A stretch of DNA of 49,364 nt, from assembly GCA_903929485.1 (NCBI GenBank), contig CAIYUY010000258.1, forward strand, positions 1 through 49,364. The letters are read 5' to 3'. Below are positions 26,040-33,822 of this stretch, one piece after another. This stretch comes from an uncultured Desulfuromonadales bacterium. GTDB taxonomy: Bacteria > Desulfobacterota > Desulfuromonadia > Geobacterales > CAIOGM01. The stretch's first letter is position 1, and the number at the start of each line of letters is the position of its first letter. The notes under the pieces are model-generated. The model searched no databases. It had not been told where the DNA came from and worked only from the letters and a program-made list of their open reading frames with translations. Both the position numbers and the translations under genes were made by a program.

Positions 26040-26642
26040 ATGGCCATCACCAGGGAGAGGATATTTGAGATCGCGGACGAACTGGACGCCAACGGACAGA
26101 ACCCGACACTGGCGCAGGTGCGCAAGCAGCTTGGCGGCGGAAGTTTTACGACCATCTCCGAAGCGATGACCCAGTGGAAGGTGCGCAAAGCCGCCAAGGA
26201 AGCGCCGACGCAACACACCCCCTTGCCGACCGTAGCCGCTGATAAGTTGAGCGAACTGGGGAGCGAGATCTGGGGCATGGCTCTCGACCTCGCCCATGGC
26301 CGACTCACCGCGGAACATGAACTGCTCCGCACAACCCGCCTGGAGCTGGAAGCCGGTAAAAATGATGCCGTGGAACTGGCTAACCAGGTCACCGCCGAAC
26401 TGGAAGAGTTACAGGAAAAGATGGTTCTGCTGGAGGAGGGGACTCAAGAAGCCCATGATGAGGCAAAGACTCTGCGGGCGACGGTTGCGATGTTGACCCA
26501 GCGCGTGGGGACAGCTGAAGCATGCGCCCTGGAAATAGAAAAGAAAGCCGCGGATCTCAACGCCGAGCTTGCCCGCGTTAATGAGCAGAACGCCCAAATG
26601 ATAAGGACTCTCTCGGCGTTGGTGTCGGTGGAAAAGCCATGA
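26040..26642 (+). CDS. KfrA-like DNA-binding protein with C-terminal coiled coil
   Basis: 200-aa protein. The N-terminal 60 residues match the KfrA_N (replication-region DNA-binding) domain: ITRERIFEIADELDANGQNP, then PTLAQVRKQLGGGSFTTIS and WK. About residues 90-195 form a long Glu/Lys/Leu-rich coiled coil (ELEELQEKMVLLEEG and similar). KfrA proteins bind DNA, polymerise and help maintain plasmids; chromosomal homologues are common on integrated elements. A good AGGAGG lies 9 nt upstream. It overlaps the next gene by ATGA. The AT-rich upstream DNA and neighbouring remnant suggest an acquired segment. Confidence 0.82.
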   Translation: MAITRERIFEIADELDANGQNPTLAQVRKQLGGGSFTTISEAMTQWKVRKAAKEAPTQHTPLPTVAADKLSELGSEIWGMALDLAHGRLTAEHELLRTTRLELEAGKNDAVELANQVTAELEELQEKMVLLEEGTQEAHDEAKTLRATVAMLTQRVGTAEACALEIEKKAADLNAELARVNEQNAQMIRTLSALVSVEKP

Positions 26643-27281: not shown

Positions 27282-27363
27282 TCACCGAAAAAGGCAAAAC
27301 CCGGGTGACCGGGCGGCGCAAAACCACCATCTCCCTTGAGAGAAAGAGGGGTTGCCGAAGTGA
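27282..27363 (+). promoter_or_regulatory. GEMM-I (cyclic di-GMP class I) riboswitch overlapping the start codon
   Basis: The core elements appear in order. TCAC (27282-27285) can close P1 with GTGA (27360-27363). Then come AGGCAAAACC, the P2 hairpin CCCGG-GTGA-CCGGG with its GNRA loop, GGCGCAAAACC, an irregular P3, and GGGGTTGCCGAAG, the conserved tetraloop-receptor end of the class. The base I align with the G that recognises the ligand in Vc2 RNA is G, which favours c-di-GMP over cGAMP. The ribosome-binding site AGAGGGG lies in the 3' strand of P3 and the GTG start of the receptor gene lies in P1, so ligand binding should block translation. Confidence 0.82.
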
Positions 27364-29372
27364 ACAGCCGGACAATAACCGTATCCGCCGCTCTCATCGC
27401 CGCCATACTGCTCACCTCCGCCGCTCCGTCACGGGCCAAGGAGCAGAGGAGTAAACCGTCCGATGACCTGATGGATTTGGGTATCGAACAGTTGCTGCAG
27501 CTTGACGTCCCATCGGTGTACGGGGCCAGCAAGTACGAGCAGCGAGTGACCGATGCCCCGGCCTCGGTGAGCATTGTTACCGCCGAGGAGATAAAAAAGT
27601 ACGGTTACCGGACCATCGGCGACATCATGCGCGGCATCCCCGGTTTTTACGTCTCCTCCGACCGAAACTACTCCTACCTGGGGATCCGCGGCTTCAACCG
27701 GCCCGGTGATTACAATACCCGGGTTCTGATTCTACTGGACGGACACCGGCTGAATGACAACGTTTATGATCAGGCGCCCATCGGCAACGAATTCCCGCTA
27801 AACATCGACCTGATCGACCAGATCGAAATAATCCGCGGACCAAGTTCATCACTGTACGGCTCCAGCGCGTTCCTGGGTGTGATCAATGTAGTTACCCGAC
27901 AAGGCAAGGATATGAAAGGGGTCGAGGTTACCGCCTCGGGAGGGAGCCGGGAGAGCTACCAGGGGCAGATCAGTTACGGCAACAAGTTCACAACAGGATT
28001 GGAAACGTTGGTTTCCGGAACGGTTTTTTCCAGTAGCGGTCAGCGACAACTCTTTTTCCCGGAATATGCAATCCCGGAGTTGAATAACGGCGTCGCCGAC
28101 AATGCCGACCGTGAGCGGGCATACACGCTTTACGCCAAACTCTCTCTTCAGGAACTGACCCTGACCACTCTCTTCAGCAGCCGGAACAAGACAATCCCCA
28201 CGGGATCTTTCGGCACACAGTTTAATGACACCGGCGCCAACACCACGGACAGCCGCAGCTATCTGACCCTCGCCTACCGGCATAAAATCGAAGATCACTC
28301 TGAACTGAGCGCCCATCTTTCCTATGACAACTACCACTATTATGGAGAGTATCCCTACGGAGCGACATCAGCCGGCCCACCGTTCGTAAGCAAGGATGCG
28401 GCCCTGGGAGAATGGCTGGAAGGTGAACTCCAGTACAACCGGCGCTTCTTTCAGCGACACCTGTGGACCGTCGGCGGAGAGTTTCGGAATAACTTCACGC
28501 AGAACCAAGCAGCCACAACCCTGGATGATCGCCGAACCTCCCGCGAGTATGGGATTTATCTCCAGGACGAGTGGCAGATTATGAAAAATCTCATCCTCAA
28601 CGCCGGAGTTCGCTACGACCGGTACTCCACCTTCGGCGGCAGCAGCAATCCGCGTCTCGGCCTGATCTATCGACCGGTGGAAACAACTATCCTCAAGCTC
28701 CTCTACGGCACCGCCTTCCGCGCCCCCAACGTTTACGAACTCTACTACCATGACATCGGACTCTACGCAAACCCCTTCCTGCAACCGGAAAAAATGACCA
28801 CCTATGAAGCGGTTTACGAGCAGTATTTCGGCCAGAACCTCCGGACCTCCCTCTCCGGCTTCTACTATCAGGCGTCAAAGCTCATCTCACTGGTTGGTGG
28901 GACCTACATCAACAACGCCAACGTGGATGCCAAGGGGTTGGAGACGGAACTGTCGGGGAAATGGGCTAACGGTCTCCAGGGGCGACTCAGTTACACATAC
29001 CTGGATGCCCGCGACATGGATACCAACACCCTCCTGACCAATGCCCCACGTCATCTTGCCACCTTCAACCTGAGCCTCCCTTTTCTGGAGAAACGGGTTT
29101 TTTTCAGTCCCGAAGTAGTGTACACCGGGCCGCGGAGTACCGTTACCGGCGCCACGGCAGGAGGTTTTATCACAACCAACTTGACGCTCTTCAGTCACAA
29201 CCTGCTCCCCGGCCTGGAGCTGTCAGCCACTGCGTACAACCTTTTTGACAAACGGTACGGCGACCCGGCGGCGGAAGAACATTACCAGCAGGTAAACGGA
29301 GAGATTCATACCCTGAACACCATCCCCCAGGATGGCCGGAACTTTCGCATCAAGCTCGGCTACCGGTTCTAA
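27360..29372 (+). CDS. TonB-dependent outer-membrane receptor
   Basis: 670-aa outer-membrane receptor from GTG 27360. A signal peptide (ITVSAALIAAILLTSAAPSRA) is followed by the plug domain: DAPASVSIVTAEEIKKYGY, then GIRGFNRPGDYNTRVLILLD and IEIIRGPSSSLYGSSAFLGV. A 22-strand-type beta barrel follows, and the last residues FRIKLGYRF end in Phe, the usual outer-membrane signature. No N-terminal signalling domain is present. The substrate (metal chelate, vitamin or glycan) is not evident. GTG is chosen because it gives an ordinary signal peptide; its ribosome-binding site lies inside the riboswitch. The YfiR-like gene starts 26 nt later. Confidence 0.93.
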   Translation: MNSRTITVSAALIAAILLTSAAPSRAKEQRSKPSDDLMDLGIEQLLQLDVPSVYGASKYEQRVTDAPASVSIVTAEEIKKYGYRTIGDIMRGIPGFYVSSDRNYSYLGIRGFNRPGDYNTRVLILLDGHRLNDNVYDQAPIGNEFPLNIDLIDQIEIIRGPSSSLYGSSAFLGVINVVTRQGKDMKGVEVTASGGSRESYQGQISYGNKFTTGLETLVSGTVFSSSGQRQLFFPEYAIPELNNGVADNADRERAYTLYAKLSLQELTLTTLFSSRNKTIPTGSFGTQFNDTGANTTDSRSYLTLAYRHKIEDHSELSAHLSYDNYHYYGEYPYGATSAGPPFVSKDAALGEWLEGELQYNRRFFQRHLWTVGGEFRNNFTQNQAATTLDDRRTSREYGIYLQDEWQIMKNLILNAGVRYDRYSTFGGSSNPRLGLIYRPVETTILKLLYGTAFRAPNVYELYYHDIGLYANPFLQPEKMTTYEAVYEQYFGQNLRTSLSGFYYQASKLISLVGGTYINNANVDAKGLETELSGKWANGLQGRLSYTYLDARDMDTNTLLTNAPRHLATFNLSLPFLEKRVFFSPEVVYTGPRSTVTGATAGGFITTNLTLFSHNLLPGLELSATAYNLFDKRYGDPAAEEHYQQVNGEIHTLNTIPQDGRNFRIKLGYRF

Positions 29373-29398
29373 CCGTCAGCTTCCAGCCAAGGACAAGA

Positions 29399-29938
29399 GT
29401 GGTGCTACGATATTTCTTAAAACTATCAGGTTGGCTGATCACACTGCTGGGGTTGACGCTGGCGCCGGCAAAAGCTGTCGGCCAGGGGAGTGACCTTCGG
29501 GAATACCAGATAAAGGCGGCCTTTATTTATAATTTCGCCGTGTATGTGGAGTGGCCCACGGAACAGAAACCGCGCACCGTCTGTACCTTAGGCGCCGATA
29601 CTTTTGCTCCGGCGCTGGAAACAATCAGCGGCAAGGTCGTCAAGAACCAAACCCTGATGGTTCGGCGCATCGCGGAGATCGAAGACGCGGGCGCCTGCGA
29701 CATTCTCTTCATCGGCAGGTCGGAAAGAATCAACCTCCCCTCCATCCTTGACACGGTTCGCAACCGGCCGGTGCTGACCATCAGCGACATGGAACGGTTT
29801 ACCCATGCAGGCGGGATGATCGGCCTCCTCTCCCGGGATAACAAGGTTCTCTTTGAAATAAATCTCAAACGGGCGCAACAGTCGCAGCTGAAGGTCAGCT
29901 GCCAACTCCTGAAACTGGCGCGTGACGTCATCGAGTAG
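29399..29938 (+). CDS. YfiR-like (DUF4154) periplasmic protein
   Basis: 179-aa protein starting at GTG 29399 (AAGGAC upstream). A signal peptide with GWLITLLGLTLAPAKAVG leads to EYQIKAAFIYNFAVYVEWP, the hallmark of YfiR/DUF4154. Later motifs are ACDILFIGRSER, VLTISDMERFTHAGGMIGLL and FEINLKRAQQSQLKVSCQLL, all typical. Three cysteines remain in the mature part. YfiR represses the periplasmic domain of the diguanylate cyclase YfiN in Pseudomonas. Here the gene is followed after 5 nt by a CHASE8-type cyclase, and the usual outer-membrane partner YfiB is replaced by a TonB receptor upstream. Confidence 0.92.
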   Translation: MVLRYFLKLSGWLITLLGLTLAPAKAVGQGSDLREYQIKAAFIYNFAVYVEWPTEQKPRTVCTLGADTFAPALETISGKVVKNQTLMVRRIAEIEDAGACDILFIGRSERINLPSILDTVRNRPVLTISDMERFTHAGGMIGLLSRDNKVLFEINLKRAQQSQLKVSCQLLKLARDVIE

Positions 29939-29943
29939 CAACC

Positions 29944-32478
29944 ATGCGAAAACAGATTCGAACCTGTCCGCTGAAAACAAAGCTGGTGGCGATGATGCTC
30001 CTGACCAGCACCACGCTTCTCGTGGCGGCGACCACAATTTTCATCGTCAACGAAGCAATCGCCTATCGCCAGGCAATGAAGGAGGAGCTGGTTTCCCTGG
30101 CGGACATCATCGGTCGTAACGCAGCTTCGGCTCTGCTCTTCGATGATCCCTGCTCAGCCGCGGAAACCATCGGCAGCGTCAGCGCCAACAAGGCCATCCT
30201 CTCGGTCTACCTCCTCAAGGGGGAGCGCCGGATTTTCACCCAGTACCACAAAAAGGGGGCCGCCCCAGCCGACCAGAGTTCCGACAAGGGCGAGCCCCGA
30301 ATCACGGCGGCTTTCATTCAGCGGCTCCTGACCCATGCCCAGGAAGATCTTCGAAACTATTGGGACTGGGATATGCGGATGAACATCGCCAGAACCGTTA
30401 CCGTGGGTGGTAAAAACCTCGGCACGGTGATCATCGAAGCCGACATGACGGGACTGATCAGCAAACTGCAAAGATTCACGCTCCTTGCGGTTCTGATTCT
30501 GCTCGTCTGTTCAGCCATGGCCTACCTCATGGCTCGGAAACTCCAGACCTTGATCTCGCTTCCCATCATTCACCTGGCCGAGACAATGAAAGCGGTATCA
30601 CTCAGTAAAGACTTCACCGTACAGGTAATGAAAAGCACCGACGATGAAATCGGCTCGCTGTTTGACAGCTTCAACGCCATGTTGGCTGAAATCAAGGAAC
30701 GGGACGAACTCCTCTGCCAGCGACAGGAACGACTCCGGCAACTGGCGCATTTCGACAATCTCACCCTGCTCCCCAACCGGGTGCTCTTTAACGACCGTCT
30801 GGCCCAGGCGTTGCTGCAGGCGAAACGACACCGGCACCGGATGGCGATCATGTTTCTCGACCTTGACGGCTTCAAGGATATTAATGACACCCACGGGCAC
30901 CGAGTTGGTGATCTCGTTCTCGTGGAGGTGGCGGCGCGTCTCCGGAATGTCGTCCGTTCGTGCGATACCGTGGCGCGAATGGGTGGTGACGAGTTCACTA
31001 TCTTTTTGCAGGATATTCAGAGTTCGGGTAACGCCGAACTTATCGCCCAAAAGATCATCACGGAGCTGGCCCTGCCGTATGCCGCCCAAGGAAAGGAGCT
31101 CTTCTCCTCCGCAAGCATCGGTATCGCCATGTATCCCGATGACGGCAATACGTCCGACGAACTGCTGCGAAAAGCCGACATGGCCATGTACCACGCCAAA
31201 AACAACAATAAAAACATGCTTAAGTTCTATTTCGCGGAGCTGGACAAGCGGATGAGTTCCCAACTGGAACTGCAGAACAGCCTGCGCAAAGCACTAGATC
31301 GTCATGAGTTCGAGATCCACTACCAGCCATTAGTGGCCATGGGCTCCGGCCGGGTGGTCGGCGTGGAAGCCTTGGTACGCTGGCGCCATCCGGAACAGGG
31401 ACTCATCATGCCGGATGAATTTATTCACCTTGCCGAGAAGTCGGACCTCATCCACGGGCTGGGACGAATGGTGCTGCATGAGGCGTGCCGCAAAATAAAA
31501 TCATTGCAGGAGGAGGGTTTCCCATCCCTGCGCGTGGCGGTGAATGTCTCTCCCTGCCAGTTCCGATCTCATAATTTCCATGAGCTGGTGCTGGAGCTGC
31601 TCCTGGAAACCGGGCTCAACCCGTGCTGTCTGGAATTGGAGATAACCGAAGGGGCCATCATGCATGATGTGGAGGCTTCAATAACCACCATGTCCCTGCT
31701 GAAGGCGAGGGGGGTCCGGATCTCCATCGATGATTTCGGCGTGGGGTACTCGTCGCTTAACTACCTGCGCCGCTTCCCCATCGATACCCTGAAAATCGAC
31801 CGTTCCTTCATCATGAATATGGCCACCTGTAATGAAGATCTGGCCATAGTCACCACCATTATCGCCATGGCCCACAGTCTGAACCTTGAAGTTATCGCCG
31901 AGGGGATCGAAACCGAAGAGCAGGTGGCGCTTCTGGCTCACCTGGGATGCCAGCTGATGCAGGGATACCTGCTGGGCAAACCTCAGCCGCCGGAGCAACT
32001 GCCGGAGGTTCTGGCAACGGTGCGGGCAGTCCACCCCACAACGGATCTCCTGACCAAGACCGTCCTGGTCATCGATGATGATATCGTCACCATATCCGTC
32101 ATCAGCGCCATACTTGTCCGGCAAGGCTACCGGGTTATCACGGCCAAGGACGGTATTGACGGGTTCAGGGAGGTAATCACCCATAACCCCCAGGTCATCG
32201 TTTCCGACAAATTCATGCCGAATGCGGACGGTTTCGCCCTGTTGCATTCTCTCAAAACCTTGCATCAGATAAGAAAGATACCAGTGATCCTCATCAGCCT
32301 GCATATGACACCGGAAGAAGAGGCCGATGCCCTTGATCAAGGTTTTTTCGATTTCATCGCCAAACCGATCAATTCTTCCACCCTCGTGGCAAGGGTCAAA
32401 CGGGCGCTTCGGTTTTCCGACCAGAGCTGGGAGCCGAGAAGAAACAGTGGGGGCAACCAGCCGGAAGGACTGATTTAA
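29944..32478 (+). CDS. Membrane GGDEF/EAL protein with CHASE8 sensor, HAMP and C-terminal receiver domain
   Basis: 844-aa inner-membrane protein. TM1 is at about residues 13-36. The periplasmic part of about 140 residues carries the CHASE8 pattern NAASALLFDDPCSAAETIGS, as in YfiN. TM2 is at about 178-197, with a HAMP linker to 250. The GGDEF domain has GGDEF at 347-351 and an inhibitory-site motif RSCD five residues before it. The EAL domain (E475-A-L) keeps NVSPCQF, ELEITEG, IDDFGVGYSSL, LKIDRSFI, AEGIETEEQ and QGYLLGKP, so both activities look intact. A receiver domain follows, with VIDDD, phospho-Asp755 in VIVSDKFMP and FIAKP. Last gene of the riboswitch operon. Confidence 0.94.
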   Translation: MRKQIRTCPLKTKLVAMMLLTSTTLLVAATTIFIVNEAIAYRQAMKEELVSLADIIGRNAASALLFDDPCSAAETIGSVSANKAILSVYLLKGERRIFTQYHKKGAAPADQSSDKGEPRITAAFIQRLLTHAQEDLRNYWDWDMRMNIARTVTVGGKNLGTVIIEADMTGLISKLQRFTLLAVLILLVCSAMAYLMARKLQTLISLPIIHLAETMKAVSLSKDFTVQVMKSTDDEIGSLFDSFNAMLAEIKERDELLCQRQERLRQLAHFDNLTLLPNRVLFNDRLAQALLQAKRHRHRMAIMFLDLDGFKDINDTHGHRVGDLVLVEVAARLRNVVRSCDTVARMGGDEFTIFLQDIQSSGNAELIAQKIITELALPYAAQGKELFSSASIGIAMYPDDGNTSDELLRKADMAMYHAKNNNKNMLKFYFAELDKRMSSQLELQNSLRKALDRHEFEIHYQPLVAMGSGRVVGVEALVRWRHPEQGLIMPDEFIHLAEKSDLIHGLGRMVLHEACRKIKSLQEEGFPSLRVAVNVSPCQFRSHNFHELVLELLLETGLNPCCLELEITEGAIMHDVEASITTMSLLKARGVRISIDDFGVGYSSLNYLRRFPIDTLKIDRSFIMNMATCNEDLAIVTTIIAMAHSLNLEVIAEGIETEEQVALLAHLGCQLMQGYLLGKPQPPEQLPEVLATVRAVHPTTDLLTKTVLVIDDDIVTISVISAILVRQGYRVITAKDGIDGFREVITHNPQVIVSDKFMPNADGFALLHSLKTLHQIRKIPVILISLHMTPEEEADALDQGFFDFIAKPINSSTLVARVKRALRFSDQSWEPRRNSGGNQPEGLI

Positions 32479-32604
32479 AGGATTACTAACCGTTGTCACG
32501 CCATCGACTTCCATCCCGTATTTTTCATGTAACTTTTTCCTAACAACTTCCGTCTGAATGTTGTATTGTATTGCTATTGTCATATTTTTGTTTTCCGGTG
32601 TCCC

Positions 32605-33822
32605 ATGAGCAATCTTAACTCCATACTTCTCATCACCCGTGACAAGGAATCCCAGACGACACTGGCCGACCTTCTCGCAAGGAGCCGGCGTCCCCTTGAG
32701 TTAAGCGCCTTCGCGATCCGGTTTCCCGATGACGTGAAACTCCTTGAATCGTTTCCGCTGCTCCAGCTGGTGATACTGGAGGTCCGCTCCATCTCCCAGG
32801 GTGTAAGAGATATTGCCGCTATCGCCACCATCAATCCCCGGATACTGATCATCGCCATCTCCCGGGAAAAACAGCCGGATTGGGGCCTTACCCTGATTCA
32901 AGCGGGAGCTGATGAATACCTGGCCAATCCGACCAACCGTGGGGAACTGGAAGATGTTCTGGGACGGGCAGCTCTCATCTTTGAGCAAAAACAGAAGAGA
33001 GCGGACGCAAGGGGAAAGGTCATCACCGTCTACAACCCGTCGGGCGGGATGGGAACCACCACCATCGCCGTAAATCTGGCGGTATCCCTGGTCGCCAAGG
33101 GGCAAACCGCGGCGTTGATCGACCTCAATCCGTTCAGTGGCGACGCCGCTACTCTTCTTGATCTCAACCCCACGACCACCCTGACCTCGTTCCTGGAGAG
33201 AGAGAGTTCAATCACCCCCGCTGAACTCACGGGCATCATGACTCGACACGGCTCGGGGGTTCAATTTCTTAGCGCAACGGATGAAATGGGGATGGGCGCC
33301 CCGGATCAGATGCCAAGCATCCTCAACATGATGCGGAGTCGGTTCGGCGCAACGGTCCTTGATGCCGGCGGTTCACTCTCCAAGAGCAACCTGGATATCT
33401 TTGGCGGTTCGGACGTCATTCTGTACCCTCTGCTTCTCACCCGGCCGGCCATCAACAACGCCGGACGCTATCTGAAGGCGTTGAAATGTCACGGTTTCGG
33501 CCCCGATCTGGTCAAGGTAGTGGTGAACAGATATTTATCCAATGAAAATATCAGCATGGCCCAGGCGGAGAAACTGCTCGAGGTCACGCTCTTTCATACC
33601 ATTCCCAATTCCTACATGGAGATAAACAGCTCCATCTACCATGGGACCCCCCTGGTAACCGGCTACCCCCGCTCGCCCGTTACCATGGCCCTCGCCGCAT
33701 TGGCGACACGAGTTACCACGGAGTTAACCGGCAATTTCTTCCAAAGAAAGCCCATTCCGGCGCCGGCGCCTTTCGAACACGGCTTCTTTTCCGGAATGCC
33801 GGCGGCTCATGTCTTGGGCTAG
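32605..33822 (+). CDS. TadZ/CpaE-like atypical ParA ATPase, orphan
   Basis: 405-aa protein from ATG 32605. About residues 5-125 form a receiver-like Rossmann domain (ILLITRDKESQTTLADLL, LLQLVILEVRS, GADEYLANP). From 138 there is a ParA/MinD ATPase: VYNPSGGMGTTTIAVNLA is the Walker A region, where both the signature Lys (Ser146) and the P-loop Lys (Thr151) are replaced; ALIDLNPFSGDAATLLDL and TVLDAGGSLS are the later motifs. CpaE/TadZ proteins localise Tad pilus machinery at the pole and commonly have such variant P-loops. No other tad or cpa gene lies in the window. The 126-bp gap from the GGDEF/EAL gene suggests a separate unit. Confidence 0.8.
   Translation: MSNLNSILLITRDKESQTTLADLLARSRRPLELSAFAIRFPDDVKLLESFPLLQLVILEVRSISQGVRDIAAIATINPRILIIAISREKQPDWGLTLIQAGADEYLANPTNRGELEDVLGRAALIFEQKQKRADARGKVITVYNPSGGMGTTTIAVNLAVSLVAKGQTAALIDLNPFSGDAATLLDLNPTTTLTSFLERESSITPAELTGIMTRHGSGVQFLSATDEMGMGAPDQMPSILNMMRSRFGATVLDAGGSLSKSNLDIFGGSDVILYPLLLTRPAINNAGRYLKALKCHGFGPDLVKVVVNRYLSNENISMAQAEKLLEVTLFHTIPNSYMEINSSIYHGTPLVTGYPRSPVTMALAALATRVTTELTGNFFQRKPIPAPAPFEHGFFSGMPAAHVLG

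Follow-up and report, generated by a model that had tools for sequence, protein, structure and literature searches.

A TonB receptor-YfiR-CHASE8-GGDEF-EAL-REC operon behind a c-di-GMP-I riboswitch aptamer in an uncultured Desulfuromonadales bacterium

YfiBNR of P. aeruginosa and HmsCDE of Y. pestis are envelope signaling systems in which a DUF4154 regulator adjoins a CHASE8-GGDEF sensor, and for YfiR the roles of both cysteine pairs, including the redox-sensitive pair Cys71-Cys110, have been described (PMC4887326). A related arrangement has been curated in NCBIfam as a trio of TOL_0244 TonB receptor, TOL_0243 YfiR-like protein and YfiR-associated histidine kinase (NF053590, NF053591, and NF053592). 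Among the RNA elements that respond to c-di-GMP, Vc2 is a GEMM-I switch that acts as a translational OFF switch, with helix P1 being decisive (PMC9262584). Ligand choice in such aptamers depends on position 20 (Vc2 numbering), where G goes with c-di-GMP and A with cGAMP; an A20G change turns a Geobacter GEMM-Ib aptamer c-di-GMP selective (PMC6456294). Here we describe a locus that shares features with these systems and differs from them in others.

The window, i.e., the whole stretch of DNA that was analyzed (49,364 nucleotides), is contig CAIYUY010000258.1, positions 1-49,364 of the forward strand, from an uncultured Desulfuromonadales bacterium (GCA_903929485.1). The features of the locus, in window coordinates, are as follows.

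27282-27363, + strand: helix P1 of the aptamer, formed by UCACCG 27282-27287 with CG 27356-27357 and GUGA 27360-27363 (pairing in relatives, constrained folding)
27283-27359, + strand: c-di-GMP-I (GEMM-I) riboswitch aptamer with G at the Vc2 G20 position, column 11 (cmscan RF01051; our models R1 and R2)
27345-27351, + strand: Shine-Dalgarno-like AGAGGGG, its GGGG inside P3, 8 nt before the GTG (sequence; P3 pairing in the cmscan alignment and in folding)
27360-29372, + strand: TonB-dependent receptor, 670 aa, with signal peptide, plug, beta-barrel, and GTG start (PF07715, PF00593)
29399-29938, + strand: YfiR-like periplasmic protein, DUF4154, TOL_0243 type (PF13689, NF053591)
29944-32478, + strand: CHASE8-HAMP-GGDEF-EAL-REC inner-membrane enzyme, 844 aa (Pfam, motifs)
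32062-32400, + strand: C-terminal receiver domain of the enzyme (PF00072, 73 bits, residues 707-819)

The original prediction of a tight operon encoding a TonB receptor, a YfiR-like protein and a CHASE8-GGDEF-EAL-REC protein is upheld, as all the Pfam domains score above their cut-offs, with the TonB gene separated from yfiR by 26 nt and yfiR from the GGDEF gene by 5 nt. The receptor carries a TonB plug (PF07715, 82 bits) and a beta-barrel (PF00593, 164 bits), and its nearest solved chains are the colicin I receptor and BtuB. The second protein matches PF13689 (DUF4154, YfiR/HmsC-like) with 158 bits and is encoded next to the CHASE8 sensor (46.5 bits), in line with the pairing that had been proposed. 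In the remainder of the enzyme, HAMP (29 bits), GGDEF (174 bits), EAL (258 bits), and Response_reg (73 bits) were identified. The GGDEF motif is located at residue 347 with an I-site, RSCD, at 338, and the EAL set (EALVR, NVSP, LEITE, DDFGVGYSS, LKID, AEGIE, and QGYL) and the REC motifs (VIDDD with the receiver aspartate, SDKFMP, and AKP) are intact. With the I-site and the complete GGDEF and EAL motifs in place, the last gene is predicted, as before, to be able both to make and to degrade c-di-GMP.

As in YfiBNR and HmsCDE, the DUF4154 regulator adjoins a CHASE8-GGDEF sensor, and the redox-sensitive cysteine pair is kept, since Cys62 and Cys100 align with Cys71 and Cys110 in an alignment with solved YfiR structures. 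However, the second pair (Cys145/Cys152) is absent, the output is HAMP-GGDEF-EAL-REC with an I-site, and the proteins fall below the equivalog cut-offs for YfiR (NF053586, 63.8 bits against 85) and for YfiN/DgcN (PRK09966, 259 bits against 325). Furthermore, the operon has no OmpA/Pal-type lipoprotein, as a Pfam search for an OmpA-like domain (YfiB) gave none in the three operon genes, the two upstream neighbors, and the one downstream neighbor. A KfrA_N-domain DNA-binding protein is encoded upstream (26040-26642). The downstream neighbor (32566-33822) encodes a ParA/MinD-like ATPase whose N-terminal domain is degenerate and which by eye resembles CpaE/TadZ.

Similarity to the TOL_0244/TOL_0243 trio extends to the gene order, the CHASE8 membrane sensor and the type of YfiR, which scores 136.2 bits against the NF053591 cut-off of 125. 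Unlike the trio, the receptor stays below the TOL_0244 cut-off (132.9 bits against 645), and the output is GGDEF-EAL-REC rather than a histidine kinase, so that NF053592 is matched over the sensor part only (153.9 bits against 194). The closest homologous operon, L183 of Syntrophobacterales GWC2_56_13, has the same order, with identities of 57% (TonB), 47% (YfiR), and 51% (CHASE8-GGDEF-EAL), but has neither aptamer nor REC tail. Indeed, a receiver tail occurs in 0 of the 37 CHASE8-GGDEF-EAL homologues examined, in which the extension after EAL is 3-52 aa, as against about 155 aa here.

This type of operon is common. Of the 277 class genomes, 111 have a TOL_0243-like YfiR, and a TonB receptor lies directly upstream of 107 of the 140 YfiR-like reading frames detected in the class and named-genome loci surveyed (see below). 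The suggestion that the outer-membrane partner YfiB had here been replaced by a TonB receptor does not hold as a one-off swap, because the arrangement is both widespread and already curated as the NCBIfam trio. The outputs of the 140 frames are CHASE8-GGDEF-EAL in 34, CHASE8-GGDEF in 1, CHASE8 plus receiver in 40, and CHASE8 with another output in 30, with no adjacent CHASE8 gene detected for the remaining 35. Outputs other than GGDEF-EAL thus make up at least half, and the two of these checked with Pfam are histidine kinases. These counts depict a module with one input side and interchangeable outputs. The genome of the window itself contains a second TonB-YfiR-CHASE8 operon (L068), with a receiver-containing non-GGDEF output and without an aptamer. 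Nothing relevant on TonB plus YfiR/DUF4154 operons was found in the literature library searched.

The aptamer in front of the operon is the sole Rfam match in a cmscan of the whole 49-kb window. Its match to RF01051 (27283-27359, + strand; 53.3 bits, E 1e-7, with a gathering threshold of 35 bits) ends directly before the TonB gene, and thereby the GEMM-I-type aptamer of the original prediction, which had been staked on this covariance-model score, is confirmed. Two covariance models built for the survey gave 77.8 bits (R1) and 70.0 bits (R2), scores to be read with the window aptamer being in both training sets.

Column 11 of the aptamer, which from the alignment and general structural knowledge we take to be the Vc2 G20 position, is a G, and for this reason the predicted ligand of the aptamer is c-di-GMP and not cGAMP. 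GEMM-Ib riboswitches, which bind cGAMP, have A at this position. The enzyme differs in the same direction from the Hypr GGDEF proteins, which synthesize cGAMP and have Ser/Thr at the GTP-selecting position, where Asp is found here (INDTHGHRVGD); aptamer and enzyme therefore agree on c-di-GMP. On the basis of G20, cGAMP specificity was rejected for this aptamer. A circuit in which it senses 3',3'-cGAMP, the loop being cross-talk of two messengers, might be thought of because the same genus also has GEMM-Ib-like aptamers in which position 20 is A and because this position influences selectivity without being an absolute filter (PMC9262584), but with G in the aptamer and Asp in the enzyme it is most improbable. 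The genome of the window has five RF01051 matches, with G in the window aptamer, L002, and the contig-end L005 and A in L003 and L004; such cGAMP-type aptamers are also present elsewhere in the genus. In sister species, tandem pairs of GEMM-I aptamers precede a single gene, with 190-226 nt between the two aptamers (L008/L013 in G003:C110 and L024/L026 in G002:C292).

The leader is unusual. By a corrected assignment, the TonB gene most likely starts at GTG 27360, the base right after the aptamer, since L183 begins at the equivalent residue; this start also gives a good signal peptide, and AGAGGGG is the only plausible ribosome-binding site of the gene. Helix P1 consists of six pairs with an AA bulge, and its 3' strand includes the start codon, UCAC 27282-27285 pairing with GUGA 27360-27363. 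Because P1 contains the GTG and P3 the ribosome-binding site, the aptamer is predicted to be a translational OFF switch, the direction being our inference. The aptamer fold, the G20-type specificity residue and P1-centered control are shared with Vc2 and RF01051; in contrast to Vc2, the start codon is within P1 itself, the Shine-Dalgarno sequence is within P3, and a separate expression platform is absent. No terminator-like site was found on the + strand between the aptamer and the TonB gene.

Constrained folding of seven transcript lengths, in which tertiary structure is ignored, is in keeping with this mode of control. Taking the free ensemble as reference, P2 and P3 together cost less than 2 kcal/mol, P1 adds 5-7 kcal/mol, and exposure of the start codon is calculated to fall from 0.13-0.67 to 0 upon P1 formation. 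Even without ligand, part of the start region is paired in these calculations, so the range of the switch could be small. In the three stretches tried, the minimum free energy did not improve on that of shuffled sequence (z -0.71 to 0.79).

The same UCAY-CG / CG-AA-GUGA pairing is found in the genus relatives L002, L011, L014, L016, and L027, in which that GTG opens no long gene, and this helix therefore belongs to the aptamer subtype and not to the gene; in L219, P1 has U-A instead of C-G. Relatives of the same subtype have T-runs 52-92 nt downstream, several with an evident terminator hairpin, and L238 has a hairpin with TTTT. An aptamer sub-class with built-in start codons was considered and ruled out, as L219 and L238, which likewise seemed to have reading frames at +1, show hairpin or T-run sequence immediately behind the aptamer, and the kinase-like gene of L219 begins further downstream. 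That gene (L219, 1501-3080), located after a c-di-GMP-I aptamer and a terminator-like hairpin, resembles a PAS-type sensor histidine kinase by eye.

The occurrence of this subtype, with its GTGA-containing P1, before unrelated genes and with T-runs downstream would lead one to think of an accident, in which recombination put the operon behind an existing aptamer with loss of the terminator, leaving an RNA that folds but regulates weakly or not at all. That L183, in another lineage, has no aptamer would also fit. However, neither the conserved core nor P1 is damaged, and P1 and P3 fall exactly over the start codon and Shine-Dalgarno sequence of the gene; such an accidental fusion is thus improbable.

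How often the aptamer accompanies this operon was surveyed with the two covariance models in 118 other loci with a TOL_0243-like YfiR, drawn from the 277 class genomes, and in 26 TonB-homologue loci of named genomes (Nitrospirota, Brocadia, Acidobacteria, Betaproteobacteria, and others, some without YfiR). It was present upstream of two of the 118 and of 0 of the 26. Because the sequence reaches 350 nt or more beyond the start of the receptor frame in 96 surveyed loci, most of the absences are real. Both positives precede TonB-YfiR-CHASE8 histidine-kinase operons of other families, namely L118 (2564-5460, - strand; also RF03167, 66.5 bits) and L099 (3089-8662, + strand; RF01051, 38.2 bits). 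Terminator-like hairpins lie between aptamer and receptor gene in both, so that conservation does not extend to the mode of control. A conserved closed-loop design was ruled out by these counts. Moreover, RF01051 occurs in 255 of the 277 class genomes, often at least 10 times per genome, and chance would give roughly 0.6 coincidences per 118 loci (a rough figure, from at least about 10 aptamers per genome and an assumed 2,000 transcription units), so that the two observed represent no clear enrichment. One deltaproteobacterial contig that also has a TonB-YfiR operon contains a TPP riboswitch (L185, 789-903, - strand, 64.3 bits). Overall, the operon type is common and its joining to a c-di-GMP-I aptamer is rare, having been found three times in all, with different outputs. 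What is new here is this rare pairing, the unusual platform-less leader and the unusual receiver tail; the aptamer class and the operon type are known. A literature search on c-di-GMP riboswitches with TonB-dependent receptors found nothing relevant.

We give an even chance to the reading that this is an envelope sensory operon under c-di-GMP control, acting through the OFF switch and a receptor relay. Rising c-di-GMP would close P1 and bury the GTG start codon, the ribosome-binding site already being held in P3, upon which translation of the receptor would fall, and that of the two following genes would fall with it by coupling. Depending on ligand or energy state, the TonB receptor would change binding of the YfiR-like protein to the CHASE8 periplasmic domain and so shift the balance of GGDEF versus EAL activity, and the receiver tail would provide a second input, from a kinase. 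Ligand uptake may relieve YfiR repression, as envisaged in the original prediction. Feedback of the enzyme on its own operon via the aptamer is plausible; it would be negative if the enzyme is a net cyclase and positive if it is a net phosphodiesterase. The recurrence of the TonB-YfiR-CHASE8 order in most loci surveyed speaks for the unity of the operon and for this reading; the sister-species operon that would bear on conservation of the leader in the genus (L067) is truncated by a contig end.

A self-contained c-di-GMP circuit goes further: P1 and P3 carry the start codon and ribosome-binding site without a platform, and the bifunctional enzyme would set the level of the ligand of its own RNA, gated from outside via YfiR and from inside via the receiver. 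This is doubtful. GGDEF was matched 17 times in the genome, in about 15 proteins, some 14 of them besides the operon enzyme, the aptamer is missing from 116 of the 118 other YfiR loci, and L118 and L099 drive kinases. Many enzymes feed the pool that the riboswitch senses, so the closed loop claimed at the outset is not established as a private one. The same genomic background might suggest an ordinary member of the c-di-GMP regulon, in which the aptamer tunes the receptor operon to the cell-wide level, the enzyme is minor and no functional loop exists. GEMM-I aptamers are found on many surface genes in the class, and, according to a review, the targets of c-di-GMP riboswitches are often cellular processes and not genes of c-di-GMP metabolism (PMC11477304). 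Against this stand the complete GGDEF and EAL sites, which make it likely that the last gene contributes to the pool; membership of this ordinary kind is possible, with a chance somewhat short of even.

Finally, it should be noted that c-di-GMP riboswitches are usually described as readers of the messenger and not as controllers of its synthesis and breakdown enzymes. In the survey, TonB-YfiR-CHASE8 modules recur widely in front of different outputs, and the signal of the receptor is a testable question. In addition, a compact operon that combines outer-membrane input, periplasmic relay, an enzyme for synthesis and breakdown and an RNA read-out would test local versus cell-wide c-di-GMP feedback.
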